Source: Halichondria panicea (taxonomy: Eukaryota; Porifera; Demospongiae; Suberitida; Halichondriidae). Taken from it: a DNA stretch of 64,000 bases. Below are positions 2,676-28,888 of the stretch, in pieces. Where the stretch lies: the NCBI RefSeq assembly GCF_963675165.1, contig NC_087377.1, positions 13,946,198-14,010,197 of the forward strand, written 5' to 3'. The position numbers and the translations under genes are program-made. The notes beneath the pieces were generated by a model. The model was not told the DNA's origin. It saw only the letters and a list, made by a program, of their open reading frames with translations, and searched no databases. The stretch's first letter is position 1. Each line of letters starts with the position of its first letter.

Positions 2676-2699
2676 ATTCTTTCCGGATTATAGGTCTTG

Positions 2700-3490: not shown

Positions 3491-3497
3491 TCTGAAG

Positions 3498-6306
3498 ATG
3501 GTCAAGTACCACCAATGTCCCAAGAGAAGGATTGTAAGTCTCATGCATTCATTCTGTTGTGTGTGCTATAATTATGATAGATCTACATTGATTAATGAGC
3601 TGCATGTAATTTATAATAGTCTAAGGGTATTATAAATCTAACTGTTTTTATAAACAATATTTCTTTTTGAGATGAGATATAAATCACAGTGTGATGGCAG
3701 CTAGTGTACTGTATGCAAAAGAATATTGGGCTGTTTATGTTCCATAGACCTACTAGCTTGCTCAAGAAAATTCAACATTAATTTGTCCCAACATGAAACT
3801 CAATCCTAGCCCTATATGAATCGAACATATATAATTATATACAGGAGTCATTGATTAACAATTCAAAATCTGCTTGATACTTAGTACATATAATTATAAT
3901 TATTATACATGTACATGTATTATTATGTAACTTGACAAATGGTGAAAGTTAATGTTGTTGTAGCTTCCTACCAGTGTAGTATTTCCCCACTTAGCTATAA
4001 TTAGTATAATCATAACAAGCACTGGCAAGGTTAATAGCACTCGGCTACGCCTCGTGCAATTAGTATCCTTGCCATTGCTTGTTACTCGCGCTATTAATCC
4101 CATATGCATGCATGCATGATATTCGCTATACAAATCTGTATAATTTATGTGTGTTCTTGTTTCCTATAGCTGCCCTCACTCATAATTGCCATCTTCTGGT
4201 TGCACCTATCTCAAGGCACGTTATCTGTATAGAAAAAGACAAGATACATAAATTACACTAATAAGCAATAATTATCTTTAATTGTTGTGCCTACTGGCAA
4301 TAAAGTATAACGTATACAGAGTATACGTGTAATAACAGACACATTTTCACAATAATTTATTGCTATAATTGTTTTTCACTGATTTCCAACATAATTTATT
4401 TTAGAAGCCAGTGTCAACCTAACTGTTGAGGGAGGTATCAATCTACTGGATGAGAACTGTCCTGGAATTGTCACACTGTTCTGTGAGGGGGTGGATATTA
4501 ATCAACTGCGCTGGAGATACAATGAAGTTATTAATATCGTCATATATTCTTCCGACAGTTCCCCGTCTCAAAGTCAGCCTTCACAAACTGCATTTTTATC
4601 TGTCGAATTGGTTGCAATATCACAGAACACAGTGGATACAAATCGAGCGAATTTCACTTCCATTCTCACTGCAAATTTATCTCGACTCCAATCTGATAAT
4701 GTAATGAATATTGAATGTGGTGATGCGGCTACATTTCAAATCGAACCAGTTAATGTGCAAATTATTGATCGAAGCAGACCCAGGGATCCAAGATTCTCTA
4801 TGGTGACAACAGAATATCAATCTGAGAGATTAAACAGTGTGCAAGTACAATGGAGAAAATCTGTAAGTTGACTCGATTTTGATGCATGCAGTAACTGTTA
4901 AGGTCTTACTGCTCATAAATTATGTTCTTCCAGGAAAACTTTTGTCCTGATTACGGTTTGATCTTTTTTTATCAAGTTAACCTTACGGCTGAGAGGTCAA
5001 TTTCTGAGTCAGTAAATCACAATGACTGCCCAAACAATTTCTGCAATGTTACTTTCAGTGAGGGTATTACCGAAGATAATAGAACAATAAAAGTTTCTAT
5101 TTTGGCAACAAGCGAGCTGGGGCCTAGTGAACTTATTTGTTACCCCTATAGTATTGGTAAGTTCATTCTACTGTCTATAATTATAACAACTGTAATTCTG
5201 ATCGATGTCTCATCTATTTTCACAGATTCTTCGGCTCAACAGTATTTTGTACCCCAGGTTTCCTTTATTAATAATCAGTTCCAAGTCCAGTGCATATCTA
5301 CAGCTCTAACCACTAGTAGTCAGAACTGCGGGGTGCGTTATACGACTGATCCACTTTTTAGAGAACTGTCAGATGAGATTACACCAATGTTGGACAAACC
5401 ATTCCACCTACCAGGACTTAGTGCTGATACCACGTACTTCTTTGAGTTTACACTGCTGGTTAATGGTAGCCTGCAAGTTGTGGACCGTATCGGTTTCACT
5501 GCTCAAACAAGTAATTAAAAATTTATGTCCTCACATTGTTTACGTATTTTTTTCAGGCACTGGACTACCAGACTGGGGGATCGCACTGATTGTGCTATTT
5601 GCGATATTTCTGGTTGCTTTAGTTATTATAATAATCGTTGTTGTTGTTGTGCTTTTGATTAAGACAAAAAAAGGTGAGTGAAATAACTGTATAATTATAC
5701 TGCTTTGTAATAACATTTCAGGTACAACAGATTTTGGCAATTTACATATGAGGTAATTTTGCTATAACCATGCATGCTATACTTACTTTCTGTATATATA
5801 CAAGCACTGTATTGCTTTTATTTGTGCAGGCTACCTGATCAGAAAGGTATGTAGATATTCACGATACCTTATATAGTACTACTATTCTGAAGGTAAATTA
5901 AATATGTAGCCTTGCTTTTGGTGGTTTTCACTTGTGTAATGACAATGTATCGATCAAAAACCGAATGTTTGTACACTGATAATTATAAGCTATCTTCACA
6001 GGACACTCCCTGGATGAAATTAAATCTAATGAAGACGTACAAAGTAATTGATATAAGCCTCAGGTATTACAGATATACATGCATATCCAAAAAACTTGTT
6101 CCTGTTAATTGTTATAATTATATAATTATATATACATTTGAGAATTTTAAGTTTGTTGTTAGATCAGCAGATGAACTGCAAAACTTACGTTGCCTGCATG
6201 TTATCATTATGATCGGGCTTTTAATAAGTTAATTTTCCCCTATATAGACGTAAAAAAGAAAATACCTGTATCGAATGACCTATTTTTATTTTTATTATTG
6301 CCATAA
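3498..6306 (+). CDS. Receptor A: Ig-like domain, two further domains, one TM helix, short tail
   Basis: Ten exons join in frame to 437 aa: 3498-3533, 4170-4215, 4405-4862, 4934-5156, 5226-5510, 5557-5673, 5722-5752, 5830-5846, 6002-6043, 6248-6306. The signal peptide is split over exons 1-2 (LPSLIIAIFWLHLSQ). Exon 3 encodes an Ig-like domain: C54 in TLFCEGVD, W64 in LRWRYN, C132 in NIECGD. It also starts a second domain finished by exon 4; exon 5 is a third domain with an SADTTYFFEF strand like a fibronectin-III F strand. Exon 6 is the TM helix (about 358-384) followed by KTKK. The tail has no tyrosine. Start and exon borders were set by comparison with gene B, whose exons match in length and phase. 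The intron after exon 2 begins with GC, not GT. The last four small exons are the least certain. The function is not recognised; a cell-surface receptor is inferred. Confidence 0.8.
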
Positions 6307-6600
6307 ATAATCTTAATTGCTGCATAATTATAAAATAATCACACTCACGCTAGATACAAGTGTTTTATGGTTACGATATAGTGTTTCCACCCACTCATTA
6401 AATGCTCTATGCATGAATATCATTATTTTGTGCATATTGGCATATTGTGTACATGCAGTTAAAAATCACAAAGCTAGCTCTGTCGGCAAATTTTAGCGTC
6501 AGTGCATGGGCCAGGAAAATGTTAAACTGAAATTTCTATCTATTTATACGAATGAATGGGTAGGGCGACACAAAGAGAAATAGTGCCCGCTACAGTACAC

Positions 6601-6805
6601 TACCGTATAGCGGGTAAGTTTCGTGGGGTAAAAAATTCGTTCAACTCGAGAAATTGTAGTTTTCGTGTGTAAAAATTTCGTTTAGTCTCGTGGCTGCACG
6701 GCATTCCTACGTTCAGATAAGCCACGCCTACGATAAAATTTCGTGGAGGTCAGCCTGCCCACGAAAATAACGAATATTTTACCCCACGAAAATTACCCGC
6801 TATAG
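6601..6805. mobile_element. MITE-like element, TACCGTATAGCG family, GGG subtype
   Basis: Begins TACCGTATAGCGGGTAAG and ends ACGAAAATTACCCGCTATA. The right end is slightly eroded. Internal CGTGG/CCACG words match the copy at 967-1178. Confidence 0.75.
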
Positions 6806-6991
6806 ACCTACCTACGGTAGTCGGTATTTTGTGTGCGGTCTTGCAGCTCTCTTTCTAGGCTTGGAGATGTAGATAAATATACCTTTCAGAGGGCGACACG
6901 ATGAATCAGCTTGTAAACTTCATACGGAAGAGCTAAAGCTGTAGTCTAAGAACTAGACTATAGGTAATTAAACAATTTTCACAGTGCCTAT

Positions 6992-7174
6992 TACAGTGGA
7001 ACCCCTCTATATAACGGACACCTTTGGGGAACAATGTTTTGGTCTTTATACAGAGGTGGCCTTTGTTGAGAGGTTGTTTTGTACACAAACTGTTCATTTG
7101 AGACCTGGGTGTCTGGCCATTATATAGCAACCCGCCTTTATTCAGAGGTGGTTGTTAACAGAGGTTCCACTGTA
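6992..7174. mobile_element. MITE with TACAGTGGAACC ends (pogo/Tc1-mariner-like)
   Basis: 183 bp, TACAGTGGAACCCCTC at the left and GAGGTTCCACTGTA at the right. TA at each end is consistent with a TA target duplication. A related copy in the opposite orientation is at 21214-21396. Confidence 0.75.
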
Positions 7175-8689
7175 CGTACAGTGAAGTCATAGATAGTAGA
7201 GGGGAGGGATTGGAAACACAGGGATTTCACGCGGCCCATGCGTGTCGCACCGGAAATTGACAGGAAGTTAATTTAATGGGAAGAGATTGGGGGAAAAGCT
7301 GGATGCTGATCAACTACTTATAGCTACTGTAGTTGCTCTGGTTGTACATCCGAATGACTGACACTTTTCTCTTTGCAAATACTTGAGTGGAGATTACACA
7401 TTCTCAACAAACCTTGAAAATAACAAGGCATGCATTTACAAAAGAAATTAAATCTAGGAACTCGATAATTATTTATACTTATGGTACTAGTACTAGGCAC
7501 TGTTTATTATTATAGACTGCTTCATAACATTATGGCTTTCACACAATCACACAATTTTGATGTTTACATAAAAATGTTTACAAACACAAAACATAATTTT
7601 TATGAGCCTGACGCCCTTTTAGGCAATGGTGTATTCTTGTCATCGGTCACTGCATGTTTAGCTCTTGCAAAAGAATTTACTAATCATAATACATAACAGT
7701 GGGGTTATCATGTGTCCCTCCCCTCTGCCGTTGGCATACAAAATACAAAAGGGTCTTGGCAGATTTTCAGATTTTCTGAGTACCCCTGGGAAAAAGTATG
7801 GGTAAGTTTGAATTAGTATAATTATTTCCAAAACGATAAACGTTAGCAAGGAAAATCTTTTCTTACTGCACATCGGGATCATTAAGCAACATGTAGAACT
7901 AAACAATAGTGATGTACAATTTATTGTTAACCAGTAGCTCCCCCGCAAAACAAGTTACTTTTGAATCCTTGTTTTCACACTTAAAAGCAAAATTTAATAT
8001 TGAACATTAAACAGCATAATGCTCAACTTGGCTATGCCTACTGCATATTTCAATGCTCCCTCTACACTCTGATCACTCTCAAGCAACCATGACTACTTCC
8101 TAGCTCAAGATATCCCCCCACAAAGTTTCTTACTTACCAATTCTTAGCTAAATACATGTAAAACAGTGTAACATGGAGCTCTGATGATCAAATAAATTTA
8201 GGTAAATGATGTAAACCATACATTTACTATGGATAATGTACATACAGACTAGCTCTGCCAGTGCTTACTGCAGTTTTCTTCACTTTCTTCTCTTTTGTTT
8301 TTGCATCTGGCTCGCAATCAATCGCAATCAATACTTGCGGAATGCAACACGCATGATTTTTTTTTATTTTATTTTTTATTTAAGAAATTTTTATGCAAAA
8401 CCAGGGTATGCATAAGGGTAGGTCAGGTAGCTCAGATGGCTAGTGTGAAGACTTCCCCTGGACAACACAAAAACAGAGAAATAAAACAGGAGCTACGGCT
8501 AATTATAATAATTATTACACAAAAAGCTACTGAGGTTCGATTTAAATGATGAATCAGAGGAGCTGTTGATAACTTCTGGTGGTAAAGAATTCCATTTTGG
8601 TATTACATCCAGGAAAAAGGAATGTTTGTGGGATGAGGTGCCCACATGTAGTATAAAGAGTATTTGGCTGTGCGGATGACGGGGGGAAG

Positions 8690-9110
8690 GGGATGGGTGG
8701 GGTGAGAAGACAGTGGGAGGAATACAGGATTTGTTGTTGATGATTTTAAATCATACTTTAAGTTTTAGAAGACAGTGGGAGGAATACAGGATTTGTTGTT
8801 GATGATTTTGAATCATACTTTAAGTTTTTGGATATTCCTGCGGTCTTTAAGTGATTTGAGTTGGAGTTTGTAAAGTAGAGAAGTCTAGTCAGATTTCCAT
8901 TCTTTGGTTATGATTTTGCAGGCAAATGATTGGGTGTTCTCCAGTTTCTTGGTGAGTGTTGATTGATGGGGGTCCCATACTGCAGCGCAGTATTCAAGTT
9001 TGGGCAGTAAAGTGCTCCAGGACCTGTAAATTGTATGCTTTGATTGCTGCATGTGATGCATCTTTTAACTTCCTGTGGAGCAATCCCAATTGTTGTTTGG
9101 ATGTCCTCAC
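8690..9110 (-). pseudogene. Non-LTR retrotransposon (LINE) C-terminal fragment
   Basis: Reading the minus strand gives LHRKLKDASHAAIKAY, then after a frameshift LPKLEYCAAVWDPHQ, KKLENTQ and LLYKLQLKSLKDRR. This is the typical region C-terminal to the reverse transcriptase core in Jockey/CR1-type LINEs. A TAG interrupts it after ITKEWKSD. It carries the tandem duplication at 8706-8829, so it is dead. Confidence 0.75.
8706..8829. repeat. 62-bp tandem duplication
   Basis: Two head-to-tail copies (8706-8767, 8768-8829) beginning GAAGACAGTGGGAGGAATAC and differing at one or two bases. Confidence 0.9.
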
Positions 9111-9312
9111 AGTGTTGGTAATGTGCTGAGATCAGGACAGATTCTTAGAGATGGTGTCAGAATTCTCTAGGGCAATACATTGGTCACCTGAGATCGATGT
9201 TTCCAATCCCTCCCCTCTACTATCTATGGTGAAGTAGTCAAGTGACTGCATGCATTAATTTTGATGATTGATGACTGTACATAGCTCACATGATCAGCAA
9301 TACATTATTATA

Positions 9313-9586
9313 AGGCCACTCCAAGTGACACTCTGGTTTCTGGTCCTGAAGTTTTTCTAATTGCATGCGGGTGGGCGGCTTTTTTTATTTATGTCATTAT
9401 CATTTCACCTTATGAATCTCATTATTAATTTTTGGAAATGAATATCATTATCACACTATTTTGTGCCACATGGAACATTCTGCGCATGTGTAGTAGATAG
9501 AAATCCAATAGAAATCCAATAGAAATCCAAGAATAAATATGATGCGGGCGGTGGACCAGAAACCAGAGTATAACTTGGAGTGGCCT
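9313..9586. mobile_element. MITE with AGGCCACTCCAAGT ends
   Basis: The left end AGGCCACTCCAAGTGACACT is matched by the inverted right end ACTTGGAGTGGCCT. The complementarity continues through GGTTTCTGGTCC. A short triplicated AATAGAAATCC lies near 9505-9530. It sits immediately upstream of gene C. Confidence 0.7.
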
Positions 9587-9666
9587 AACTGCATGCATGT
9601 TGTTAGTATTATATAATTATTGCAAAGGAAAAAAGCAGCCTGCAAAATACTAATAACTATATAGCT

Positions 9667-12600
9667 ATGATTCTTATCTGTCTTTTCTTCATTTGTTCTG
9701 CTGTTTACAGTCTTCCTGTTAAAGGTAAGTTGTGTAATTTTTCTGTGAGGCTCTATATAGACATGCTTATGTACAGCTAGTTATTTTCAGGGGCTAACGT
9801 GAGCCTATTTGTCAACAATAAAGTGAACATGGCTTGTTCGGTTAATGTCAGTGTGATGCTGATTTGTGAAGGAGTGAATCTTGCACAATTGCAATGGAGC
9901 TATAGGAGCTCTAATTCTCCTGAAATGATTAAACTCGGTATTCCGTTCCTTCCTGATTATCGTGCTAATATTACTGCTGTTGAGGCTATCAATAATCCTG
10001 CTGTTTTGGCAGTTCAACTAGTCACTGTTTCTAAATATGCTGATCAATCACGTGCAAATTTTTCATCCCTTCTTTTTGTTGATCTGTTGAAACTAGAAAA
10101 TCAGGAAATTACTAGCATAATATGTGGTGATGTTAGTACCTATGAGGAAAAGTTGGTATCTGATATTATAGTGTGGGATCTTGTTAATACGAAGATTACT
10201 GCCATGTACTGGCTAGGGGCTCTGACTAGTGTAGAAGTACATCTGAGGAGTTTAGTAAGTTGTTCATAAATACTGAATGCATACAATTTATGTAATCTCT
10301 TTAGTTAATGTGTTCTTCAGTTCTTGTGTACACCATGTCGATTAATGGATCAGATGAGATCAAAATTGTGAAGAGTTGTGTCGGTCCGTTCTGTGAGGTC
10401 AGATTTTCCTCCATAAGAACCATTGTGAGAGAGTACAACATTGAACTGAGTTTGTTTACTACTAGATTGTCTAGGAATAATACAAACCTGTACACATTTC
10501 TAATAGGTGAGACATAAATTATTATTACATCGTACTCTCTTATAATACAGCTATTTATATATAGGGCTCAAAAGTGCAGATTACTTTCATAATCAAGTTA
10601 ATTCAACTAACTGTCTCTATTCAGTCAGTTGTGCAGTTATTCAAAACGACTCTACTTGTACTATACGACACACAACACTGAGTAATCAGCCTATTAATAG
10701 CACGGGAATGTTGAAAATTCCACATTCAAATCCTGGTACAGTCCACACATTTGCGTTTTCAATGGAGGCAAACAAAAATTTACGTATCAAAGAAAACATA
10801 TCTGTTACAGGTATAATTATAGGTTTGGTTCATTTAATTGTTCTATAATTATCATGTTATTTACAGATGGAATCCCTTTTGGGACAAAACCAATTGCCAT
10901 TGTTATCACAACTTCACTGTTCCTCCTTTTGACAGCCATTCATTTCTTGTTACTACTTATAGGAGGTGAGTTACCATTGACTACACATGACCAATTCATC
11001 TCTAATATAATTGCCCGTGCAGCTTGTTGTAAGGTGAAGGCATTTGTCTATAGGAAGAAATATCTTGTTGCTTCCTTGGTGATCCTACTTGTGCTGCTTT
11101 TCATTTGCATTTCTTCATTATTTGCCTTTGGAATCATTTCGTATGGTAAATGTAGATAGTCTTAGTAGAATACGTCTTATTAGATCATGTTTGTCATAAA
11201 TACTGCAATCTGATTGGTTAGAGGAAATGTTCTATCCAATTTAGAAAATCATGTACTTCAATAGAAAATCATGTACTCCACTTAGAAAATCATGTAGCAA
11301 AGATTAGATAAGAACTTTCAAATCTGATTGGCTAAATACTCACAGTTGCTATGGTCTAAAATGCTTAGACACTGTTTAGGAAGTTTCCACATGATTTGGA
11401 AGTCCTCAGGGCTAGTAGAACCCTCACTGCGTTCGGGATACTACAACCAGCCCTTTGGGCTTCTAAATCATATGGAAACTTCCTAAACAGTGTCTAACTA
11501 TTATGTAGAATACTTTTATGCTATATAGCCAGTTGTCCTTACACATTTTCCCATAGGTACACAATGCAGTCAGATTAGGTTGACACTTCACAACAGTATG
11601 CTTGTTACAATGCTGATAATATCGTGTTTGGGAATAACAATTTTGATTACTATTTGGAGTTTTATTGGACACGGGGTGTACAAACATTGCAGTAAGTTTC
11701 ACTTTCTTTTTCCTAACTTGACTATAATACCTATTACGACTGGATATCATGGTATAACTTTATCCCATGTATGTGATTTCTTATTCAGAATCCACATTAC
11801 GATCAGAAAACAGAGATCTTAGGTATGCTCAAAGGAAACGTTTTGGTGCTTCATTATTTTTTCAAAACTACTTAGTAATTGTATATACCAAACTTGTATA
11901 GGAACACACAGCTGGATCATGACTCTAAAACGGATGCTTATTGCACAACACAAGGCAGGAATGCCTATCTTAATCAGGTTCAATGTCTTACTGATATTTT
12001 ACGCCATTTTTTATACAAGCTTGTGATTTAACAGACGGCAGCCAGCTCTAAATACCCTGGAAGGGATGTGAAGTCTAGAGACTGTCAAAAGGTAAAATAC
12101 TCAAACTGCTACTAATGTTTTAATTCCTTTGTGTTATAGAAAAGTCAGTATGATATGCTGGAGCACCCGTTGACAAACAGATTTTCATCCTATAGTTGTG
12201 ATGTAAAGAACGACTTTTATGGGACCCTAAATGAGGTAATTATTGCATGCGTAAGCAATTGAGCATGGCATGCATGCACTTGTGTTGTTAATGTGCATTA
12301 TTGCTATATATAGCTTTATATATTTGCAGGAAGCATTGATTGAGCTGAAGTTGGGAGGTGATCCCTATGAACAGCTGAGACCTGGTGAAAAGTCAAGACC
12401 CGTGCCAAACCTGACAGACACTAGCTACTCCCACAATCCAAAGAGAAAGTCCAAACAAATTTTAACTGCAGCACCTGATGTTGTTTTCAGAAGTAGAAGT
12501 GAGGTAAATAGTTAGTCTTATTGTGCCATTGGGTTTTGTGAAATTTCTTTCTTTTAGGATGAATATGATGTTCTTAGTCGGCAAAGCATTAACTTTCAAG

Positions 12601-12862
12601 ATGCAACCAACGGCAGCAGACTTCACTCCTTTTATGGAGAGCTCAGTCAGGTAAGCACAAACATTGTGTTGTAAATTTCAATCGCATCATCATGCATGCG
12701 CTGTAACAATTACAGGCATCCATTGAGCCTTCTGGAGCTGGACTCTATCTCCAGCTGCGCCATGGTGAGAAGTCAAAGCCAGTGCCCAATATGGACGATC
12801 CTACCTACTCACATGTGCATATCGAACCTGAAGTAGAAGGGTCGCAAGCGAAACCTAATTAA
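9667..12862 (+). CDS. Receptor C: Ig-like ectodomain, three TM helices, multi-YxxL tail
   Basis: Fourteen exons join in frame to 667 aa: 9667-9724, 9791-10254, 10305-10506, 10565-10810, 10867-10965, 11023-11145, 11557-11691, 11789-11822, 11902-11977, 12035-12091, 12140-12235, 12330-12503, 12558-12650, 12716-12862. The signal peptide is MILICLFFICSAVYS. The Ig-like domain has C45 (LICEGVN) and W55 (LQWSY). Two more domains follow, the second with four cysteines. Exons 5, 6 and 7 each encode one hydrophobic helix (about 332-354, 371-394, 412-434). Basic VYRKK before the second helix and VYKHC after the third put the tail in the cytosol. The ~230-residue tail has six YxxL motifs: YDML, YGTL, YEQL, YDVL, YGEL, YLQL. 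YGEL and YLQL are 12 residues apart, within the loose ITAM spacing. The segment GEKSRPVPN occurs again as GEKSKPVPN. Receptor signalling is inferred; no known family is recognised. Confidence 0.85.
11345..11502. repeat. Hairpin inside an intron of gene C
   Basis: TTAGACACTGTTTAGGAAGT near 11365 is matched by its reverse complement ending near 11500 (ACTTCCTAAACAGTGTCTAA), with more pairing inward. Just upstream, TAGAAAATCATGTA occurs three times (about 11230-11300). This is probably a foldback MITE, 50 nt upstream of the third-helix exon. Confidence 0.75.
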
Positions 12863-15322: not shown

Positions 15323-18300
15323 ATGGTCAAGTGCCCTATGTCCCACCAATGTCCCACTAAAAGGATTGTAAGTATCATACATGCATGCATGCATGTATAT
15401 GCTGACTCCATGGCTGTTGTCATGCACTTCTCCTGCTATAATTACAGAGTATTCTACTTTACAAACTTATACTCCAACTATTATAGATGAAACTGAGCGA
15501 TCATCACGTACAGACCTAATATTAATGTGTACCATAATTATAAGTAACTGTTCTAGGTTGATGTATATACTTTAATGGAGCTATAATAATATAGATAATT
15601 ATATATACTGGGTAGTGAAAGTGGATTCTTATATAGCTAGCTGCGTCTACCTGCCATCGATCACATGCACGTATACAGTCATAATTATGTAAATACTTAT
15701 ATTGAAAGTAAATGTACTATAATATACCAGTGGTGGATCCAGGGGAGTTTCAGTGGTTTCAAATGAACCCCCTTAAGAGATCTAATCAGCAACTTACTAG
15801 TCACTGCTATAGCCTGCTGATGTGTGGTTTTAACGCAGATGCGTGACTATTGTGGCAAATATCAATAAAAAACACACATTTTGCCACAATCTCAAGCACT
15901 CTGCGTCAAAACCACACAGCACTTGTGACAGTGCTACATATTAAAACGCTGAGTTAGCAAAGAAACAGGATTTACACACACTCAAGTTCTTGCCACTGTG
16001 CGTGGATGTAAACACATTTTTTAAACTCCCTTTCTTATTTTAGATATGCCACACATTTTTGAAACCCCCTTTCTTATTTTAGATATGCCACTGTATTATA
16101 CTATAATTATGAAGCCATGCAGGGACTTATCCCAGGGTTTTCTACACTTACACGTAGGTATAGCTATACACGCACGTATACACGCTTTTATTTTATTGTT
16201 GCGGTTTTTGGTTAAAGTATAATATACATTCTTCTTGTATCCTGATAGCTGGCCTCGCTCATTGTGGTCACCTTCTGGTTGCAGTTATCTCAAGGTACGT
16301 TACATACTCGAGCAGTACTACTAATATTGCATTCGCTTTACTGTAGTGGTTTGTCAGCAATTAATTTCACTGATTTCCAAATGATTACAGGAGCCAGTGT
16401 CAACCTAACTGTTGAGGGAGGTGTTGATCTAGTGGATGAGATTTGCCCTGGAATTGTAACACTGTTCTGTGAGGGGGTGGACATTAATCAACTGCGCTGG
16501 AGATACAATGGAGATACTAACATTTTCATGTACTCTTCTGATAGTTCCCCATCCCAAAGTCAGCCTTCACAAACATTTTTATCAGTCGAATTGGTTGCAA
16601 TATCACAGAACACGGTGGATCCAGATCGAGCGAATTTCACTTCAATTCTCACTGCAGATTTGTCTCGACTCCAATCTGATAATGTAATGAATATTGAATG
16701 TGGTGATGCGGCTATATTTCAAATCGAATCAGTTAATGTGCAAATTATTGATCGAAGTAGACCCAGGGATCCAAGATTCTCTATGGTGACAACCGAATAT
16801 CAATCTAAGAGATTAAACAGTGTTCAAGTACAATGGAGAAAATCTGTAAGTTGATTTTGATGCCGTATTTGCAATTATTAATTTCTTGCAGGAAAACTTT
16901 TGCCCTGATTACGGTTTAACCTTTGTTTATCGTGTTAACCTTACGGCTGAAAGGTCAATTTCAATAAACCATGATAACTGTTCAAACAATTTTTGCAAAG
17001 CAACTTTTGTGGAGATGGACGGAGAAATTGGAACAATAAAACTTTCCGTTTTGGCAGCAAATGAGTTGGGATCTAGTGCACTCATTTGTTACCCCTATAC
17101 TATTGGTAAGTTTACTAACAACTGTAATTCTGATGGCTCATCTGTATTCTACAGATTCTTCGGCACAACAATACTTCACACCTCAGGTGTCCTTTACCAA
17201 TGATCAGTTCGAGGTTGAGTGCATATCTACAGTTCTAAGCGCTAGTGGGCAGTCCTGCAGTGTACGTTATACAACTAACCCACTATTTACTGGATTGTCG
17301 GATGAGATTACATCAATGCTTGACACACCATTTAGCATACCAGGACTTAGTGCTGATACTATATACTACTTTAAGTTCTCTCTGCTGGTCAATAGCAGCC
17401 TCCAAATCGTGGACCGTATCAGCTTTATTGCTCAAACAAGTATGTAAATTACGATAGTGTTGTTGTTATTACATTATTGTAGGCACTGGGCTACCAGGCT
17501 GGGGAATCGCCCTCATTGCAATTGTAGTGATTTTTTTTGGCATTTCTACTGTCATAATCTTTTCAATATGTGTCCTCCATGCCGTCAGAAAAAAACGTAA
17601 AGGTGAGTATATACTTGTTTAAATCAGTTCCTGCAGTTTGTTAATTTACACAGGAAACATACACTCTACGGATAATAATAATGGGTATGTAGCCAACTAT
17701 ACGGTATAGATCGTATAATTATATTCATGATATCATTCTCTCTTAACTGCAGATGCAAGGATAGTCAGCAGGATGAATCTGAAGTTAGTATAATTATAGT
17801 GCACTGACTATTTGCAGATAAAAGTGTCTTTCTATATACTAGCTGGTATATCTTAATTTCTCAGAAATGTACAGATGTACTCTTCAATGATGACCCTGCT
17901 CGTCGTTCATGTAATACCGAAGAAGTTGACCTTGAACCTGATCAGGTATAATGAATTTAGTCATGCAGTAACTTGAATTGTACACCATTGTTTCCAATGA
18001 AAGACGTTCATTATACCTTTAATTTTCAGCTTGTAACACGTTGTATTACGAGAAATCACAACCTAGCAAACGATATGACTATAAAAGAAGCAAGGGAAGA
18101 GGTATGGTTATAATTATTTTCTTACATATATACTTGCTCTGCGTGATCATAATCAGTGGATAATTCAGTATTTACCATCATGCAGAATTGCACAATTCTT
18201 GCCTGAACAAATTGAATATACCTGCCGTAGTTAATTCATGGCTTGACTTCGTGCATATAAATGTTGCTAGCAGCTATAGTGTCTTATAATTATAATAGGC

Positions 18301-19310: not shown

Positions 19311-22300
19311 ATGTTTGCTACTTTTATATATATATTATCCATTGCCCTTTATATTAAAGGTAAGCTAGTCTTATTAAGAGTATTTTGCAGATTATAGCTC
19401 TAGCTATACTATTTTTTGTAGCAGCAGAAGTTTACCTCACTGTCAAAACTGAAGCAAACACGGTTTGCTCGGATAGTTCCAGTGTGATGCTCGTTTGTGA
19501 AGGAGTGGATCTCGAAGTATTACGGTGGAGTTACAGTAGTCCCAACTCTACTAAAGATATGGATTTGAAGTCGTTCCTTGCAGATGATTCTCCAGAACAT
19601 TATAGCATTGATAACAATCCTGCTTTCTTGACTGTTCAATTGATCGCTGTTTCTCGTTACCCTGATTCAAATGATTCCGCAAATTTTTCCTCTATTCTCA
19701 CCTTTGATCTGTTGGAGCTAGATAATCAAGGCATTACTAGCATAACATGTGGTTATGTTAGTACCTTTGAAGAAAAACAGGTAACTGATATAATAATGGA
19801 TCTTGTCAACACGAAGATCACTGCCAATTACCATATTGGGGCTCTGACTAGCATAGACGTACAACTGAGGAATTTAGTGAGTTTTTAAACCCATGCCTTA
19901 TTATTAGCACTATGGTATTTTCTTTTAGCTGACGTGCTCTTCAATTATCATGTACACACTAATAATCAGTGGACTAGAAGAGGTCAAAACTATGAGGAAT
20001 TGTGTCGGTCCATTCTGTGAAGCCAGATTTTCCTCCATAAGAATCTCTACGAAAGAATACACTGAGTTAACTTTGCTTACTACTATCACTGGAAATAAAA
20101 TAATATCCCGCACATTTCCAATAGGTATATAATTATATAGGATCCCTAGTTAACACATGCATGGTATTCCATTCTACTACTACTATTATAGGTCTCAGAA
20201 GTGACAACTACATTTTTACTCAAGTTAATTCAACTAACTGTGTCTACTCGGTTGGTTGTACAGTCATACAAGAAGATTCTACATGCTCTATACAACATAC
20301 AGTCCCTAGTGAGCAGCCTATAAATGGCATGGAAATGCTAAAAATTCCACATTCAATTCCTGGTACTGTTCATAAATTTAAGTTTTCAGCGATGGAAAAT
20401 AGAAATTTCCATATCAGAGACAATACCTCATTTACAGGTTAGGTTTGATTCATGCACTAATCAATAATGTTGTATCCGTTCTTATGCAGATGAAATTCTT
20501 TTTGGTTTAAGGTCAACTGCTATTCTTAGCACAACTTCACTGTACCTTATCTTTATGGTCATTCACTTCTTACTACTACTTATAGGAGGTAAGTTATATA
20601 CCGTCAACTCAAAATAATGACCAATTCTTCTCTGATAATAATGGAAATACAGCTTTTTGTAAGGTGAAGGTGTTGGTCTATAGAAAGAAATCTCTTGTTG
20701 TTTCTATGGTGATTCTACTCGTACTGCTTGTCATTTGCATTTCTTCATTATTTGCCTTTGGGATCATTTCGTATGGTAAACAGATCAGATAATTTATTCT
20801 TTTCATAGTAAAGTTATTCTTACAAACTTCTTTATTTAGGTACACAATGCAGTCAGGTTAGGATGACACTTCACGACAGTATGCTTGATACAATGTTGGT
20901 CATTTCATGTTTGGGAATAACAATTTTGATTACTATTTGGAGCTTTATCGGATACGGAGTGTATAAAAATCGCAGTAAGTTTCACTTTTATTATAGCCTT
21001 GGAAAATGTTTATTATCCCGAACATACACACCTTGTATTACCCTTCAGAATTCACATTGCGATCAGATATTAGGTAAGTCCTGAGATATGCATTCTGCTA
21101 GCCTCCTTCACACATGCCTCTAATGAAGAAATGCGGCCTGAGATCGAGGCTAGCATTCTGCATGCATGCATTCTTTAATAATGCAACTTTTGTACATACC
21201 TATACCGTAATACTACAGTGGAACCTCTGTTAATAACCATCTCCGAATAAAGGCTGCTATATAACGGCCAGGGCACCCAGGTCCCAAATGAACAGGTTGT
21301 GTATAAAACAACCCCTCAACAAAGGCCACCTCTGTATAAAGGCCAAAACATTGTTCCCCAAAGGTGACCGTTATAGAGGGGTAAGGTTCCACTGTATAAT
21401 GTTTTTGCAAGCTAGTGAGTGCATGGTATAATGGCTTTGCAAAATAAGATTGAAAAGACCTATACCATGCAGTACTTGTATGGCATCATGATCCTTTGCC
21501 TGATCGCAAAGTTAAATCACCAAGTGTCAAAATTAATTTTCTACTGATTTGGCTCAATTTGCAAATGTTTTCACTTGCCTTAATGTGGTAGTTAATTTTG
21601 CCATCTAATTCTATGTTTTTATAGGAACACTGAGCCCAACCATGATCTTAAGGACGCCTATTGCGAAACACAACACAAGAATGTGCATCTCCGTCAGGTT
21701 AAATTTCATATTTATCATTGATATACAAGCCTGCATGTGATTTTACAGACGGCAGCCAACTCTTCAAGTGAAGTTCCTGGGGTGAATATGAGATCTAGAG
21801 ATGGTCAAAAGGTATAATAATTATCATTGAAACAAACTACAGTACTATACTTTTAGTGACTCCATATCATTTCTATCCCTTTGCATTGTAGAAAAGTCAG
21901 TATAATATGCTGGAGCGCCCATTGACAACTAGATTTTCACATAGTTGCGATGTACGGAATGATTGTTATTCGACCGTTAATGAGGTAATTTTATTGTTAC
22001 GCTTGCATGCATTTGTGCTGGTAATGACATTATTGCTACCTTAATTCATGCTGTATAATTTTATAGGGAACATTGATAGAGCTGAAGTTAAGAGATGCTC
22101 CCTACAAACACGAATCAAGATCTGTGCCAAACCTGACAGATCCCAGTTACACTCATATTGCAAAGAGAAATTCACAGTCAATTTCAACTGTACCTGATGT
22201 TGTTTTCAGAAGTAAAAGTGAAAACACGAGGGTAAATATAGGCTTTGTGCTGTTGTACCATTGGGTTTTGTGTTCTTTTATATAGGATAATTATGATGTT

Positions 22301-22619
22301 CTTAGTCAGCAGAGCATTAACTTTCAAGATGCAACAAATGGCAGCAGGTTTCACTCCTGTTATGAAGACATCAGTGAGGTATATAGTAATAAAACTACGT
22401 TGCATCATCGCGCAGTATAGCTAACAATTTTTACAGGCATCCATTGAGCCTCTTGGAGCTGGACTCTACCTACATCTGTACCATGGTGAGAAGTCAAAGC
22501 CAGTGCCCAGTATGGACGATCCTACCTACTCACATGGGCATATCGAACCTGAAGTAGAAGAGCCGCAAGTGAAACCTAAAAGGTTTTCCTTGAAGAAGAC
22601 TGGACAATGCATGAACTAA
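19311..22619 (+). CDS. Receptor D: paralogue of C, three TM helices, multi-YxxL tail
   Basis: Fourteen exons join in frame to 665 aa: 19311-19359, 19422-19876, 19929-20124, 20192-20437, 20490-20588, 20653-20775, 20840-20974, 21049-21073, 21625-21697, 21749-21811, 21892-21984, 22067-22231, 22286-22378, 22437-22619. Exon number, phases and several exon lengths (246, 99, 123, 135, 93) equal those of C. Exon 2 is taken from the acceptor TTTTTTGTAG|CA because this restores the phase; a CAG at 19388-19390 is an alternative. The Ig-like domain has LVCEGVD and LRWSY. Three helices follow, one per exon. The tail motifs are YNML, YSTV, YTHI, YDVL, YEDI and YLHL; YEDI and YLHL keep the 12-residue ITAM-like spacing. 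Two C motifs changed: YEQL became YKHE and YGTL became YSTV. The C-terminus is extended by a basic stretch (KPKRFSLKK). Confidence 0.85.
21214..21396. mobile_element. MITE with TACAGTGGAACC ends in an intron of gene D
   Basis: TACAGTGGAACCTCTG at the left, GGTTCCACTGTA at the right, 183 bp. The interior is the reverse complement of 6992-7174 (for example CACCTCTGTATAAAGGCCAA). TA flanks are consistent with Tc1-mariner-type insertion. Confidence 0.78.
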
Positions 22620-22894
22620 ACAGCAGCTTACAGTATAGCTAGTGTGTGTTGGTACTAACATTTTACTTGCTTATAATTATTGAGTGTGACTATAGCTAGC
22701 TGAGACCAGTTTCTGGAGTGATGTATGTGGTGAATATACCCTTATGATGAACCCCACCCTCTCCAGGAAGGCCAAGTTTAAATTATAGTATTGGAACATT
22801 TATATGTACGAACATATAAACTTGCTCATTGAGCCTAGAGTTCATGAAGGTTGAAACAGCATTTTCATCGTTCTGAAGTATAGCATGTATATAT

Positions 22895-23240
22895 ATAGCT
22901 AGTCATTATTAGGCTTAATGACTCTATACAGGGCCATATCATCGGCAAACATAATTATGTTGTCCTGTGAAATAACTTCTGTTACTTGGTTGATATAAGA
23001 GATGAATAGTAGGGGCCCGGGGCCTAAGACCGAGCCCTGAGGAACTCCAGAAAGGACTCGTAGACTAGTGTATTCCAACAATTGCTCTCTGCCCAGTAGA
23101 TAACTTTTTATCCACTTTACAATGTACTCATTGACGTGCAGATACTGAAGGTGCTTCCGGCGAAAGAGCAACATGTGGGACAGAGTCAAAAGCTTTTTTG
23201 ACATCGAAAAATAATTTATGTCGACAGCCCAGGGACAGAG
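22895..23240 (-). pseudogene. Non-LTR retrotransposon reverse transcriptase fragment
   Basis: On the minus strand FFDVKKAFDSVPH is followed, after a frameshift, by WIKSYLLGREQ, LSGVPQGSVLGP and the catalytic IMFADDMALY. These are reverse transcriptase motifs of a Jockey/CR1-type LINE. No 5' or 3' part is present. Confidence 0.85.
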
Positions 23241-23346
23241 ATCAGTAGTGAGAATTGTTGAAGCATTAATCCGCCACTGTTTTTGTGTGCATTGACCTGT
23301 GTTAGCTGGAAATTAAGTGAAAATGCCTTAATTAAAGATATCATGA

Positions 23347-23718
23347 TCAAATCGAAATGTACATGCACTGATCGGCACCGTTCATCACAAAAAGAAAGAC
23401 TTTGGTAACATTGCAGATTAGTTTAACAGTAGGACAGTATGGACCAGGAATTGTGTCTTTTTCATCATCTGTAATTGCACTTACAGACATTCCTATATAA
23501 TTTTGTTGTCGATGTATTCCTTTACTTGAGTACATGACTCCATAAAATAAACCCCATTTACTAACCTTGAGAAGCATACAAGGCTTACCTCGATCTGGAC
23601 AACAACCTGAGAGACGCTTGCCCTGAATGCTTATACTTGACTCAGCTGGACAACCCGCAGATCGCTTTTGGCGTGCAACAGAGGACACCTGCAAACCTGA
23701 ACGCCTCTGTTTCTGCAA
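23347..23718 (-). other. Unassigned 123-codon open frame with a weak Ig-like signature
   Basis: An open frame on the minus strand ends with GPYCPTVKLICNVTKVF. This is reminiscent of the CPGTVRLFC start of the Ig-like exons nearby, but the tryptophan that should follow is missing. It could be a decayed receptor exon, retroelement sequence or chance. No promoter, splice partner or TM segment was found. Confidence 0.2.
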
Positions 23719-23739
23719 CCCTTGAGCTGGAGTCCCACC

Positions 23740-25785
23740 TGAGTCCCAGGGCCGCGATCACTGGAGCAGAGCTGGAGGAGGAAGCAACCATGGGTCAAGT
23801 TGGAGCTATATGAGTCCTAATAATTATGTCTGACCCAAAATTGATTACTCTGGTAGAAAAGCTTATTGACTGAGTGAAAAAACTGGAAGCAAATATAGCC
23901 GGATGCAGGGTTCTGGAACCACATAAGATTCCCATGTTTGGTGGGAGAGAACAGCAAAGAGATGTCCCTAATCGTGAAATTGTCAGTTGGAACTGTGGAA
24001 AGACAGGCCATGTGTCTATAGAGTATGTAGTGCCCCCCCAAAAGACAGCTCAGGAAATTTTCTACCCCCTGTGTGATGGCTCGCACGCAGGAGAGTAGAT
24101 GTACTGAAAATACTACTCACATGCATAAATGTGAGTTGTACATTTACAAAACACTCAATTGATAAACTATATAAACACCTACAGGCGGGTTTTGTGTCGG
24201 AGGCGAGGTGAAGGAAAAAGCACTATATATTCTTTCTTATCGACACAGGTACAACAGTCACCCTGATTCACGGGACGCCTGAGATGACATGCAATACGGA
24301 CAATTGGAGCCATGGGCTGAAGTACGACAGGTAGGAGTCGATGGGAGCCCGTTGACAGTGCATGGGCACGGGCACAGTTATCCAACAAGAGTTGTTTTGG
24401 TAAGTCTACTAACACAGAAACCATTTTTGGGTCTCAATTTTTGCAAGAATGTATAAGGTAAGCATCGATTTTGAGAAGGCATCTGTCAACAACCCCATGC
24501 ACGCAATTCCTTTGGAAAACCACAAGCAATAGGAAAGCCATGCGAAATTAATGACGAGAACTGCAGTTACACTATTATACATCTCGAGCCACTCTTGTTA
24601 ATTGATGTAAGCCAAGAGTAGGGCTTGGCAAATTATGCTAGCATAATTTTTGGAATAATAGGGAGACTTCTAGCAACAAGTATAATCAAGAATAATAGGG
24701 AGACTTCTAGCAACAAGTATAATCAAGAATAATAGGGAGACTTCTAGCAACTAGAATAATTGAGAATAATAGGGCACTAAATTAGCATTATTTGACCCTC
24801 AGAGTCTGATAGACCTAATTTCACATCTTATAATTATAATGTATAGCTAGATAGACATCTATTACTGTGCTGTAAGCACTAGCCACTATAGGCAGGCATG
24901 GAGGAGTATTTTATCTTTCGGCACTAGAGGATTATATTTCACTTTGAATTCTGTAATGCTACCTCAGGTATAGCCTTGGTCCTAGGCCGATTTTTTTTTT
25001 AATAGAACGAAGTTGAAAAATACTAGCTAGAGACAACGAGGCTGGGAACCGTCAGGTGTATAGTGCTATCAATACAACTACAAATAAATTGATGTCTTTA
25101 CACTGGAATATAATGGGTACATCAAACTGGAATAATATAGGCTGACTTTTTGAGAAAGAAATTAAAAAGCATAAGTTGCCAAGCCCTATAACCAAGAGCA
25201 GCTTCAGGACCCCATTATATTGGACCTGTATTACGGGCTAAACAAGAAATCAACTATTAAGTCACTGAGCAAATCGACAATACTTTTTTTTTAGATATGG
25301 ATGCAACAATATCTAAAAGAGACCTTGGATTGTTCACCTAGTCATTCCAACTAGCATCAAACGAGCTCAAAGAAGCACACGCAGGTGTACAAAGTAGACA
25401 TCTGGGGAGAATATGTTCTCAAGAGTACGTGATCGTTTCTACTAGCCTGGCTATCCCAACAATATTTGCAAATGGTGCAAGACGTGTCCGGATTGTGCAA
25501 CTACAGAAACTAAATCACAATCCAACCTCCAGGACAGACTCTACGAAGAGAAAGCACATGGAAACCGTATATGCCCAGGACGATCTTGTCTGGGTACAGT
25601 CCAAGGTAATTCCTCAGGGTGTCAGCAGAAAACTCCATGGACCATGCAAGACCGTACAGTATCCTCCGAAACAGCTTTCTGACTCAGTTCTCATCGATTG
25701 CAGAACCCATGCACGTTTACCTCGTCAATGTCCGATCATTCACTTTGATCGACTTAAACGATGTCCCCCAACCATTTGACTTGAA
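23740..25785 (+). pseudogene. Decayed Ty3/gypsy-type retrotransposon: zinc knuckle, protease, integrase tail
   Basis: Three landmarks lie in order on the plus strand. At about 23988-24030 the frame SWNCGKTGHVSIEY is a CCHC zinc knuckle that has lost its first and last cysteines. At 24236-24275 LIDTGTTVTLIHG is a retroviral-type aspartic protease active site (D-T-G codons at 24242-24250). At 25429-25779 an open frame contains DDLVWVQSKV, GVSRKLHGPCK, QLSDSVL and IIHFDRLK, the C-terminal region of a gypsy integrase. The reverse transcriptase, RNase H and integrase core that should lie between are absent, and many stops and frameshifts are present. LTRs were not identified. Confidence 0.75.
24653..24775. 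repeat. 37-bp tandem repeat, three copies plus a partial one
   Basis: Units start at 24653, 24690, 24727 and 24764 with GAATAATAGGGAGACTTCTA followed by GCAACAAGTATAATCAA. The third unit has diverged slightly and the fourth is cut after TAGGGC. It lies between the protease and integrase remnants. Confidence 0.92.
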
Positions 25786-25789
25786 CATG

Positions 25790-26507
25790 TCTGTAAAAGT
25801 AGATCGACCAGCCAATCCTCCCAGCAATACACCTGCCGGCACTCACTTATACAGTTGCTTGAGGACGATATGATGCTACAGCCTATAGCCGATAGCTCAT
25901 CACCGACGTTACCCTCACCGATCACGACAGCTCCCTGATCGATTCATGGGATATATATACCACATGAGAATTGTTTATATAATTTGGGACAAATTTTCTG
26001 TTTCGGAGGGGAACAATATATACAATTGTCACATGCCTGCATGTGAGCATACAGTATTAATTCACTATTATTCACTAGTGCAGACTTCTCGGCTTAACTC
26101 TCAAAGCAATTAAATGCAGTTTATTATTAGCGCAGACATAATTTAGTGTTAAACAATCGCAGATCTGTAGTACCTGTTTATAATAGTGTATATATACTCA
26201 TAATACTGTAACGTAATTTGTATTGTATTCTGACTGGCCACAGTAAATACTGTGTCAATCTCTAGGATTGTATAATAATTCAGTTTTGTCTCGTTGTGTG
26301 AGATAAGTTGTATATACAATGCTGAACTATGCATGGTGTTAAATGTAGCTGTTTGTGGAAACAATCAGAGGGCTATAGCACAGATAATTTGGGACTAAAT
26401 AATGTTGTGTAAACTGGATCCACACAGTCAATATAATTTGATTATAATAGCATCGAAAGTTAGTGAGAGTTATAAGTTGATTGTTTACTGTTACTACACT
26501 AATTAAA
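25790..26507. other. Spacer and probable 3' UTR of gene E
   Basis: No gene is seen. The part next to 26508 should contain the 3' UTR of the minus-strand gene E. Confidence 0.4.
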
Positions 26508-28888
26508 TTAGGAGCGAGTATTGTAGTACACAGCCTCTTGAGTATAGCGTGCATATGCTTCATTTCTATTCACTTCGATTTGTTTGAAACGTAACTCGTC
26601 AATCTCTTCATACACAGGGCTCGGACTCCTCTCTGAATTATTGATCACCATGGAGATACCAGTATCGTTGCTGATTGTCTTGTTTCCACTTATCTTCTGT
26701 CGTTTAAGTACCACAGCAATAACCACAATTATGGCTGTCAACAAAAGACAGACCAAGCTTGTTAACCCAATTGAAATACCAATAATTATTTCTTTACTAA
26801 AGACAATTCCATTCATAGTTGTAGTAACAAATTCGTCCATTCCTAAAAATATATAAAAATAGTTATAAGCAATTCACCATAATTGTACCTATATATGTAT
26901 ACCTTGTGAGCATATATGACGGGTGTTGTACACGAATTCTTCTTGCAACTGCAGTGTGTCACTAACGTTCCATTTCAGAAGGAAATAGTGTGATGTGGTG
27001 GTCTCTTGCAATGTTAAAACATTATTAGAAATGAGGTCCTGAGTTGACTGAATTTGCTGGTACAATGGATCTCCTCCATAGTAGTTGCTTACACAGTGTG
27101 TATCATTTCGTACTCTTATTGAGCTAAAGCAGTTAATTTGCAAAGCTGCACAGTTTAGAAACTTAATACTGGGTCGATAGTACAGTGCACTGAATTGATC
27201 TATGAGTGTGTACAATTTCAATGATTATACATAATAATTATGGACTTACGAATAGGACTGATGAATTCATGTGTACTTGTGCCTCCACTGTTAGTTGCTG
27301 TTAGGAAAATCCTGAGACTGGTAGTTAAGAATTCTGTAGCAATAACAATCTTTGCAGTGCATATTGCTGACATGCACTCATTTGATTGGATTTCAGCTGT
27401 CAATAGTATTTCCATCTCATTGTATCTGATACTCAGATCATATTGTATTGGGCTGTAACCACACACAGAGGCAACGTTAACCTGCATTGTGTTATTAGTT
27501 ATAAATGCTAAGTTACACTGGTTATAAAACTCTCACCCAATCAACTTGAATTACTTTCAACTCTCCTCTGTTTGAGTACAAGACAACAACACTCAAAATC
27601 TCGGGATAACTAGGTTCTGTAGAGTTAGGTTGACACAAATTAAATTGCATGCATGCATGCATGGGCTTACCAATAGTGAAATTTCTCCTATTACTAACTT
27701 GATCAACTTCTGAATCATTGATTTCTACCCAGGCTTCGTAAAAATTAATATTTGTTGATGTTAAGGTGTATTGCTCATCAAGACTAGCATTTATCCGAAG
27801 TAAAATTTCGTATAAACTGTTTAGATAAACAACGGAACAAAAGGCGATTGTTGATGCGCTCAGTGGTGATGTACAAAATCCTCTCAATTTGCAACCATCG
27901 TATGTATGTGTAATAGAGAAGTAGTAGTCACTGTTACGAGCTATATATACAGTGTGCATGCGTGATGACCAATTTACATATGAAATTTTAAACTCACCTA
28001 TATATTTCACTGTTTTGTACGAATCTATGATTTGTGAATCACCTGATGGATGTGTATTTGTGAGCACGAGCGTTAAGTTGTGTTCACGATCCTCAATATT
28101 ACGTGCAATGTTTTCAAAGATTCCTATGCAAAACAGACTCCCACATGTGCTGTAATTGACTTGAATGGATTGAGATCCTGTTAAGCCAACTATATATACT
28201 ATTGATTCTAGCATGTGTTCAGGACAAGCAGGTTGCTGTGGGGCACGAATAATGCTGATGAGTGATATCTACATGCATGTATACAACTTTGAATTACCAG
28301 TTTGATCCATGATATTTGCAAGCTGTTTAGTAGACCAGAATGGTAGCAAGCACTGATCGAAGATACTTTAGGATTGTCAGGAGTTGTTTCTTGGGTAATT
28401 ATAGGGTCCACTTGTATAGTCTCAAAGGTGATAACATCTCCGCATGAGATGTCAATAATCCCTTGTGTCTGCAGTTGCTCCACATCTACTGTTAGGACTG
28501 AAGAAAAATGTGTCTGCCCTCGAGCTAAAAACTGAGAAGAAACATTTGTGAGCTGCACAGACAGAAATGCAGGGTAGGATGATAACTGGATAGGTGTAGA
28601 AGATATATCTGAATCAGATACAAAACTACAAATAAAATTATTCCCGTTGTATATCCATCGAAGCTGGACAAGGTTCACTCCTTCACAGAACAGTCTGACA
28701 GTTCCAGGACAGTGTTCACCAACCAGACTCACTCCTCCTTCAACAGTCAGAGAGACTGATGAATTCTGTAATGCCAAAATGTTGCAGCCACCTGGAGGGT
28801 TTCCATAATCATGAGATCACTCATGCCATGAGCTAAGTCTAGACAGCTTACATTCAATAATGAAAAGAAAAAGGTACAGATTTTTCAT
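26508..28888 (-). CDS. Receptor E: Ig-like plus several further domains, one TM helix, YEEI tail
   Basis: Eight exons on the minus strand join in frame to 660 aa: 28888-28852, 28791-28298, 28235-27998, 27940-27671, 27616-27537, 27481-27250, 27199-26903, 26842-26508. The signal peptide is MKNLYLFLFIIECGCNILA, split by the first intron. The Ig-like domain has RLFCEGVN, LRWIYN and IDISCGD. Four more domain-sized units follow, with intron phases matching A-D (0 inside a domain, 1 between domains). The TM helix (IGLTSLVCLLLTAIIVVIAV) precedes KRQK. The tail has PVYEEIDEL, the preferred Src-family SH2 ligand type, then YARY and AVYYNTRS at the end. Compared with A-D it has about two extra ectodomain modules and lies on the opposite strand. 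Function inferred as a cell-surface receptor. Confidence 0.85.

Follow-up and report, generated by a model that had tools for sequence, protein, structure and literature searches.

Which kind of receptor system is represented by a cluster of immunoglobulin-like (Ig-like) genes in a sponge, how far does it extend, and what might it recognize? The question is raised by a stretch of 64,000 nucleotides of Halichondria panicea, C1:13946198-14010197, which is called the window here (C1 being the contig that carries it, NC_087377.1). A preliminary description had claimed five complete genes of Ig-like receptors at positions 3498-28888 of this window. We rebuilt the genes exon by exon from both strands by joining splice sites and phases, and the genome searched comprised 131 Mb. 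The window covers the left edge of an extensive receptor complex located on a single chromosome, and five complete members are inside the window. Both local and segmental duplications contribute to the growth of this complex, whose ectodomain lineages have exchanged tail exons. As an overall explanation we consider it rather probable that the locus is a duplicating, tail-exchanging sponge receptor complex on one chromosome, for which a paired-receptor-like function in sensing self/non-self or microbes is proposed.

Five multi-exon genes (A to E) are found within 3498-28888, and all of them read through with coherent splice sites and phases, as had been claimed. Their introns are of the GT-AG type, the sole exception being a GC-AG intron after exon 2 of gene A. 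The start is shared by all five: a short signal-type exon (judged by eye) is followed by a phase-1 intron, and the next exon, which terminates in phase 0, holds the Ig module together with the initial part of the following module. Between the later modules the introns are in phase 1. This exon code had been described before and was seen in A to E alike; the split signal peptide ascribed to all five genes was found in A and C, where two exons encode it, and not in B, D and E. The ectodomains are paralogous, with identities of 79% for A/C, 55% for B/D, 32% for A/E (E-value 1e-41), 28% for B/C (E-value 8e-24) and 27% for A/D (E-value 1e-21). Because of this paralogy and the 85 genomic matches to the Ig exon of gene E presented below, a chance origin of the gene models is excluded, and the five window genes are real. 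The modular ectodomains, the varying number of membrane helices and the differing tails were confirmed as well. Hydrophobic stretches, judged by eye, give one helix in A, C and E and three in B and D. The tail types observed are T1 (B and D), T2 (a partial sixth member, called the orphan here, and many relatives), T3 (Sushi-bearing neighbours), T4, the tail of E's own type and, in A and C, tails that lack tyrosine.

To estimate the size of the complex we counted genomic matches to individual exons; these counts are lower bounds according to the search tool's own note. The Ig exon of gene E has 85 matches in the genome, all of them on C1, and 75 lie between 13.95 and 14.54 Mb (0.6 Mb). At least 100 of the 154 residues are covered without a stop in 59 of the 85 matches, 51 of them inside 13.95-14.54 Mb. 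A close paralogue of gene E, at C1:14279753, is 76% identical to it and has the same tail (86%). The Ig exon of gene D yields 67 matches, again without exception on C1, and the eight full-length ones are of the B/D type and are spread over 11.46-13.97 Mb. The clustering reported in the preliminary description stands, the number of five genes does not: there are far more, including the partial sixth member at 1875-2687(-). For this orphan no Ig or third-module match was obtained upstream on its strand (2688-9600 searched), and the frame may be what is left of a decayed member, or a very short one.

Cassettes of several genes appear to be repeated along C1, e.g. at approximately 14.09-14.11, 14.16-14.18 and 14.485-14.51 Mb, and within such cassettes three Ig exons (C1:14100554, 14169861 and 14494844) have the same DNA sequence across 151 codons. 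The trio may represent recent segmental copies or unmerged haplotypes. The latter leads to an explanation in which the assembly has exaggerated the extent of the complex and many “paralogues” are alleles; several further pairs that differ by 1-2% in protein would fit this as well as the identical trio does. Yet most compared pairs differ far more (synonymous divergence, dS, of 0.05-0.7 and up), members interleave on both strands, tails differ between near-identical ectodomains, and the five window genes would stay regardless. We therefore give inflation by haplotypes very little credence, and prefer a complex grown by duplication.

The T3 exon, which encodes a helix plus tail (P[IV]YEEV...NQAYG) in Sushi-bearing neighbours of the window genes, occurs in at least 150 copies, as all 150 scored of 274 candidates are located on C1. 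They span C1:11.25-14.93 Mb, approximately 3.7 Mb, with a median spacing of 8.3 kb. This set is far larger than the reported Ig-receptor cluster, and the sampled genes have Sushi and Fn3-type exons. Five T3 loci were sampled elsewhere in 11.25-14.93 Mb, and Pfam Sushi was present in all four that were scanned (L080, L081, L082, L084). The profile of the window-family Ig module gave no match in five T3-tailed loci. By eye, the N-terminal domain of the T3 family has a C...C...W spacing like that of the Ig tip in the window; a link between the two is not supported by the profile comparison, which is not significant (E-value 0.11, probability 0.5%). Two other neighbours, L072 and L074, have an Ig exon of the window family followed by a Pfam Sushi exon.

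A second characteristic of the complex is the exchange of tails. The last exon of T1 has 10 matches, T2 has 23 and T4 has 18, every one of them on C1, and the T1 tails of B and D are 70% identical. Gene B and a paralogue at C1:11.456 Mb are 88.6% identical in DNA over a stretch that begins with the signal and includes the first two helix exons; in the third helix exon the identity is 84%, and their tails, T1 in B and T2 in the paralogue, have no DNA match; a third match of 88 bases leads from the end of the B Ig exon to a site beyond the tail of the paralogue. The neighbouring genes L044 and L041 (14.250 and 14.255 Mb) have Ig exons with 97% protein identity and are 82% identical in DNA through ectodomain and helices, and they differ in their tails (T1 vs T2). 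Similarly, D and L042 (13.739 Mb) are 73% identical in DNA as far as the helices, with unmatched tails. The converse is also found: the T2 tails of L041 and L042 (14.255 and 13.739 Mb) are 80% alike in DNA, and their ectodomains have no DNA match.

A tree was also built from 20 Ig modules whose genes have a T1 or T2 tail; its well-supported branches require the tail to have changed at least five times. Tail types show no more clustering on this tree than labels that were shuffled (mean over shuffles 4.6-4.7), and a single clade of the five T1 genes is rejected (approximately unbiased test, p-AU 2.6e-36). The tree comprises the genes with an assignable Ig exon, 20 of the 63 Ig sequences; outside it are the tail matches with no such exon, namely T1 at 14271786, T2 at 14045032, 14274820, 14097467/14097777, 14139347 and 14411110, and the window orphan. 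Each gene was labelled according to the tail match lying downstream of its Ig match in the same orientation; the distance between the two is 1.7-3.0 kb for 19 of the 20 genes. The weakest T1 label is that of L047 (E-value 2e-6, 4.9 kb downstream), and the T2 tail of L043 contains a stop. Tail exons have been exchanged between ectodomain lineages, resulting in near-identical outer parts with different inner parts. With the tails assigned by position, clustered near-identical ectodomains with different tails have what appears from the sequence to be the anatomy of paired receptors. The preliminary description had called these receptors rapidly changing, and for copy number and tails this is borne out.

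Apart from the named tail types, locus L068 (C1:14123500-14130500) contains repeated tail-like frames with SLGPLKFGRSEDTT-type repeats downstream of a single-helix member, perhaps a further tail type.

Ten stretches of the window were scanned with Pfam, and no Ig, Fn3 or Sushi match was found in any of them. Four of these are the Ig stretches of A, B, C and E; the Pfam Ig model was likewise unmatched in L034, L049 and one frame of L073. Since the scan named no fold, structures of the modules were predicted, a check that had been suggested for the Ig and Fn3 folds. AlphaFold2 (AF2) with 48 sequences from window and genome folded the Ig module of gene E with a predicted local distance difference test score (pLDDT) of 83.9 and a predicted template modelling score (pTM) of 0.80. 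Nearly all of the best 50 rows obtained with this model from the PDB are antibodies or other Ig proteins. The scores are modest, with Foldseek E-values of 0.010-0.027 and template modelling (TM) scores of 0.34-0.44, and VIA-align Z of 7.6-8.3. In the alignment of Ig modules, from which identical, short or duplicate rows were omitted, C26, W36 and C107 are invariant in all 48 rows; in the E model they are the cysteines of the B and F strands and the tryptophan of the C strand. The Tyr-corner motif of Ig domains, D-x-G-x-Y-x-C, is common but not universal. It is absent in the aligned modules, where rows mostly read I-x-x-I-x-C-G at this place. We read the predicted structure of this module in gene E as a probable Ig fold of a divergent kind. 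The profile of the alignment, compared with PDB sequences, had HERC2 as its sole match (E-value 0.03), which is chance-like and was rejected. No fester, KIR or Alr chain was prominent in the fold searches, which is uninformative either way.

For the third module of gene A the prediction reached a pLDDT of 91.0 and a pTM of 0.82. It matched mostly Fn3 structures in the PDB (Z 8.8-10.1 among the best 50 rows), with Foldseek E-values of 0.002-0.024, none below 0.001, and TM up to 0.70. This module models as an Fn3 fold. The middle module is interrupted by an intron, and its W/Y pattern suggests Fn3 also. Among the T3-tailed neighbours, a one-exon Fn3 domain in L073 is above the PF00041 cut-off (25.7 vs 25 bits), and in two other T3-type loci Fn3 is just under it in both frames that gave any Fn3 match.

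We counted signalling motifs in the tails and measured their excess against 2000 shuffles. Tyrosines number 12 in the B tail, 10 in D and 5 in E. The phosphotyrosine tails of the preliminary description could accordingly apply to at most three of the five genes, A and C having none. Y-x-x-[LIVM] occurs 7 times in B compared to 1.8 expected, a count reached by none of the shuffles, and 6 times in D (1.7 expected, 2/2000 shuffles). The T2 tail of the orphan has 4 (1.25 expected, 44/2000), and in E the single occurrence equals the chance expectation. N-x-x-Y-[GA] is found twice in the orphan T2 tail, where 0.03 are expected (0/2000), and is marginal in E (78/2000) and B (139/2000).

A mechanistic aspect arises from these parts. 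A complete window gene would encode a signal peptide, a divergent Ig tip, a stalk of Fn3-type modules (with Sushi in some neighbours), one or three helices and one tail type. The Ig tip could bind a ligand on another cell surface or on a microbe. Tyrosines in Y-x-x-hydrophobic, YEE[IV] and N-x-x-Y-G contexts might then be phosphorylated and recruit SH2 or PTB proteins, so that different tails would provide different or opposed outputs. The balance of these outputs may set the response to self/non-self or to microbes, as in paired immune receptors.

The evolutionary rate was calculated for each domain. The ratio of non-synonymous to synonymous substitution rates (dN/dS) between A and C is 0.21 in the Ig module, 0.35 in the second and 0.26 in the third, the Ig module being the most conserved of the three; between B and D it is 0.47, 0.65 and 0.36, respectively, with 0.32 for the helices and 0.45 for the tail. 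Over the Ig exons of 23 sister pairs selected by hand (46 of the 63 Ig sequences) the corresponding ratio, pN/pS, is 0.45. Model residues 51-65 have the highest value, 0.79 [0.54-1.17], followed by residues 110-120 with 0.75 [0.47-1.61], both intervals including 1. A few single pairs are above 1, namely L034/L037 (1.90, from 10 differences), L047/L057 (1.29), L010/L028 (1.14) and L010/L027 (1.09). With pN/pS at 0.45 over the 23 pairs, general positive selection on the Ig tip was rejected. The rapid change ascribed to the receptors does not extend to the Ig sequence; the complex changes via duplication, loss and tail exchange, and positive selection on the tip is not detectable.

Purifying dN/dS would also suit adhesion or developmental receptors that were expanded for cell sorting and tissue formation and have no part in immunity. 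Chains of Ig and Fn3 are classical adhesion modules, and the available part of a review links the Ig superfamily (IgSF) of sponges chiefly to adhesion (PMC11999971). However, the very high number of copies on one chromosome, the recent segmental duplicates, stop-bearing copies and repeated tail exchange are atypical of conserved adhesion genes, and we judge such a role distinctly unlikely compared to recognition by a duplicating complex.

Several results weigh against the reading as a tail-exchanging recognition complex. Stops are present in 8 of the 85 matches to the Ig exon of gene E, and near-identical copies could in part be unmerged haplotypes. The structure matches of the E Ig module are weak, and according to VIA-align, Z scores in the range observed can reflect a common arrangement. 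The tails of A and C are free of tyrosine, and strict immunoreceptor tyrosine-based inhibition motifs (ITIMs) are not clearly above chance, with 2 in B (175/2000 shuffles), 2 in D (178/2000) and 1 in the orphan T2 tail (623/2000). With the E tail as query, 2 matches were strong, both on C1, and of the 8 weak matches 4 were on other contigs. Tail labels are based on position, not on transcripts. Finally, no domain-wide positive selection was found, dN/dS being below 1 overall.

In anatomy the complex seems nearest to Botryllus fester with its co-receptors, to vertebrate paired receptors and to Hydractinia Alr. According to the available text of PMC12065747, fester of Botryllus consists of Ig, Sushi and three helices, and its co-receptors have Ig, Sushi and Ig with tails containing ITIM, hemITAM (a half immunoreceptor tyrosine-based activation motif) or Y-x-x-I/L/V. 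The comparison with allorecognition loci made in the preliminary description was apt, as these modules resemble modules in the complex. The likeness to the fester/FcoR genes of Botryllus schlosseri (FF/FcoR, fuhc locus) includes the Ig tip, stalk modules, three-helix forms and Y-x-x-I/L/V tails, large clustered multigene sets, and relatives that share one half only (fester/uncle fester). Unlike fester, the genes of the window contain modules of Fn3 type, with no Sushi match in the scanned window stretches, the three-helix genes B and D themselves carry long tails, the phylum is a different one, and a role in allorecognition would be putative.

Hydractinia Alr is likewise a large cluster of divergent IgSF membrane proteins and pseudogenes in one genomic interval (available text of PMC11067881; for Podocoryna, PMC13119343). 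Alr1 and Alr2 cross the membrane once, as would A, C and E with their one helix, but B and D have three helices; the sponge complex has Fn3-type and Sushi stalks, and polymorphism and function are known for Alr1/Alr2. Because of the three helices (vs Alr) and the missing Sushi in the window genes (vs fester), the complex was assigned to neither. With vertebrate paired receptors (KIR, LILR, FcR-like; XFL in Xenopus) it shares, as far as the excerpts of PMC2413239 describe them, similar ectodomains with differing membrane and tail regions, clustering, domain shuffling, and birth and death. In the sponge, by contrast, the helices are shared and only the tail differs; there is no clear excess of ITIMs, activating and inhibitory forms are not nameable, and an adaptor-pairing membrane residue was not searched for. 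Sponge Ig-type adhesion molecules and aggregation factors are also surface or matrix molecules tied to recognition (PMC11999971 and PMC5450542, in the parts available). Within titles and abstract starts of the surveyed literature no sponge family is described with an Ig-Fn3-helix-tail architecture or such a cluster size, as distinct from these adhesion molecules. More generally, a sponge cluster of such receptors is undescribed in the titles and abstract starts listed from the recognition and immune-receptor literature, subscription papers lying mostly outside it.

Self/non-self recognition would be the best inference for the function, with allorecognition unproven. Two more specific explanations have to be weighed. 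Receptors for microbes or symbionts, as innate sensors diversified through bacterial contact, are a tentative possibility. The number of genes and their birth-and-death pattern fit, and, in the portions available, Ig, Sushi and Fn3 genes shift expression in one stimulated sponge and Ig genes in a second (PMC6208332), and Sushi and Ig genes are among the responders to lipopolysaccharide in a third (PMC8242945). These microbe-responsive genes may include members of the window family, but they are known by domain name only and family membership is not shown. Alternatively, the complex could be the histocompatibility (allorecognition) locus of the sponge, where allelic differences between individuals are read on contact and fusion or rejection is triggered. 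The specificity of sponge graft rejection implies a polymorphic genetic system (available text of PMC5450542). Against this it has to be said that the same anatomy serves pathogen recognition elsewhere, that the main text of one sponge graft transcriptome does not contain the words immunoglobulin, fibronectin or receptor, and that the substitution ratio in the Ig tip does not exceed the neutral level; we regard allorecognition as somewhat unlikely. The features on which the preferred explanation is based, that is, a complex with a paired-receptor-like role in self/non-self or microbial sensing, are collected in Table 1.

Table 1. Genes, modules and tails of the receptor complex in the window (positions refer to the window)
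Feature	Position	Strand	Description
Gene A	3498-6051	+	9 exons, 420 amino acids (aa): signal, Ig, Fn3-type, Fn3-like, 1 helix, short tail without tyrosine
Gene A, exons	3498-3533, 4170-4215, 4405-4862, 4934-5156, 5226-5510, 5557-5673, 5722-5752, 5830-5846, 6002-6051	+	terminates in the short ninth exon
Gene B	9667-12862	+	14 exons, 667 aa: signal, Ig, Fn3-type, Fn3-like, 3 helices, long tyrosine-rich T1 tail
Gene C	15323-18206	+	11 exons, 466 aa: signal, Ig, Fn3-type, Fn3-like, 1 helix, tail without tyrosine; first exon placed at 15323 through resemblance to exon 1 of gene A
Gene D	19311-22619	+	14 exons, 665 aa: layout of gene B, T1 tail
Gene E	26508-28888	-	8 exons, 660 aa: signal, Ig, two Fn3-type/Fn3-like pairs, 1 helix, short tail with PVYEEI and NEAYA
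Ig module, gene A	4405-4784	+	Ig alignments
Ig module, gene B	9791-10194	+	Ig alignments
Ig module, gene C	16391-16767	+	Ig alignments
Ig module, gene D	19422-19816	+	Ig alignments
Ig module, gene E (stretch folded)	28376-28762	-	AF2 model and Ig structure matches
Third module, gene A, Fn3-like	5226-5510	+	one exon, phase 1-1; AF2 model
T1 tail exons, gene B	11789-12862	+	last-exon search
T1 tail exons, gene D	21049-22619	+	exon model; T1 search
Partial sixth member (orphan)	1875-2687	-	single frame: membrane helix and T2 tail (NESYG, NQSYG, EYDYV)

Some further observations were made outside the receptor genes. Reverse-transcriptase frames (PF00078) are located in the window at 35764-37056(+) (E-value 4e-39) and, between genes D and E, at 22899-23312(-) (E-value 2e-7). 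An Ulp1-type protease frame (PF02902, E-value 2e-7) at 55436-56077(+) has long frames nearby at 48712-51494; two long frames scanned near it had no Pfam match, and together they are perhaps a DNA transposon. A cox1-like fragment with an in-frame TGA at C1:5280527-5280718, on a nuclear contig, is the sole cox1 match in the assembly, from which mitochondrial DNA may be absent. Two silicatein genes approximately 9 kb apart (C2:659038-668135) have the active site CGASYAFS (Cys to Ser), and cathepsin-like matches from L062, L063 and L065 (four shown) keep CG.CW[AS]FS. Silicatein marks a siliceous sponge, most likely a demosponge.

Sponges reject foreign grafts with high specificity (available text of PMC5450542). 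Clustered, duplicating receptors with exchangeable tails provide a concrete candidate locus for this specificity. In its most far-reaching form, which we consider unlikely, the proposal would be a super-complex of the histocompatibility type, with more than 150 Ig-Fn3-(Sushi) receptors over approximately 3.7 Mb whose tails form opposing pairs, as the source of graft-rejection specificity; if this were true, receptor logic of the natural killer (NK)/KIR and fester kind would be present in sponges, close to the root of the animal tree. Should the complex have a role in self/non-self recognition, the logic of paired receptors would be either very ancient or repeatedly evolved.

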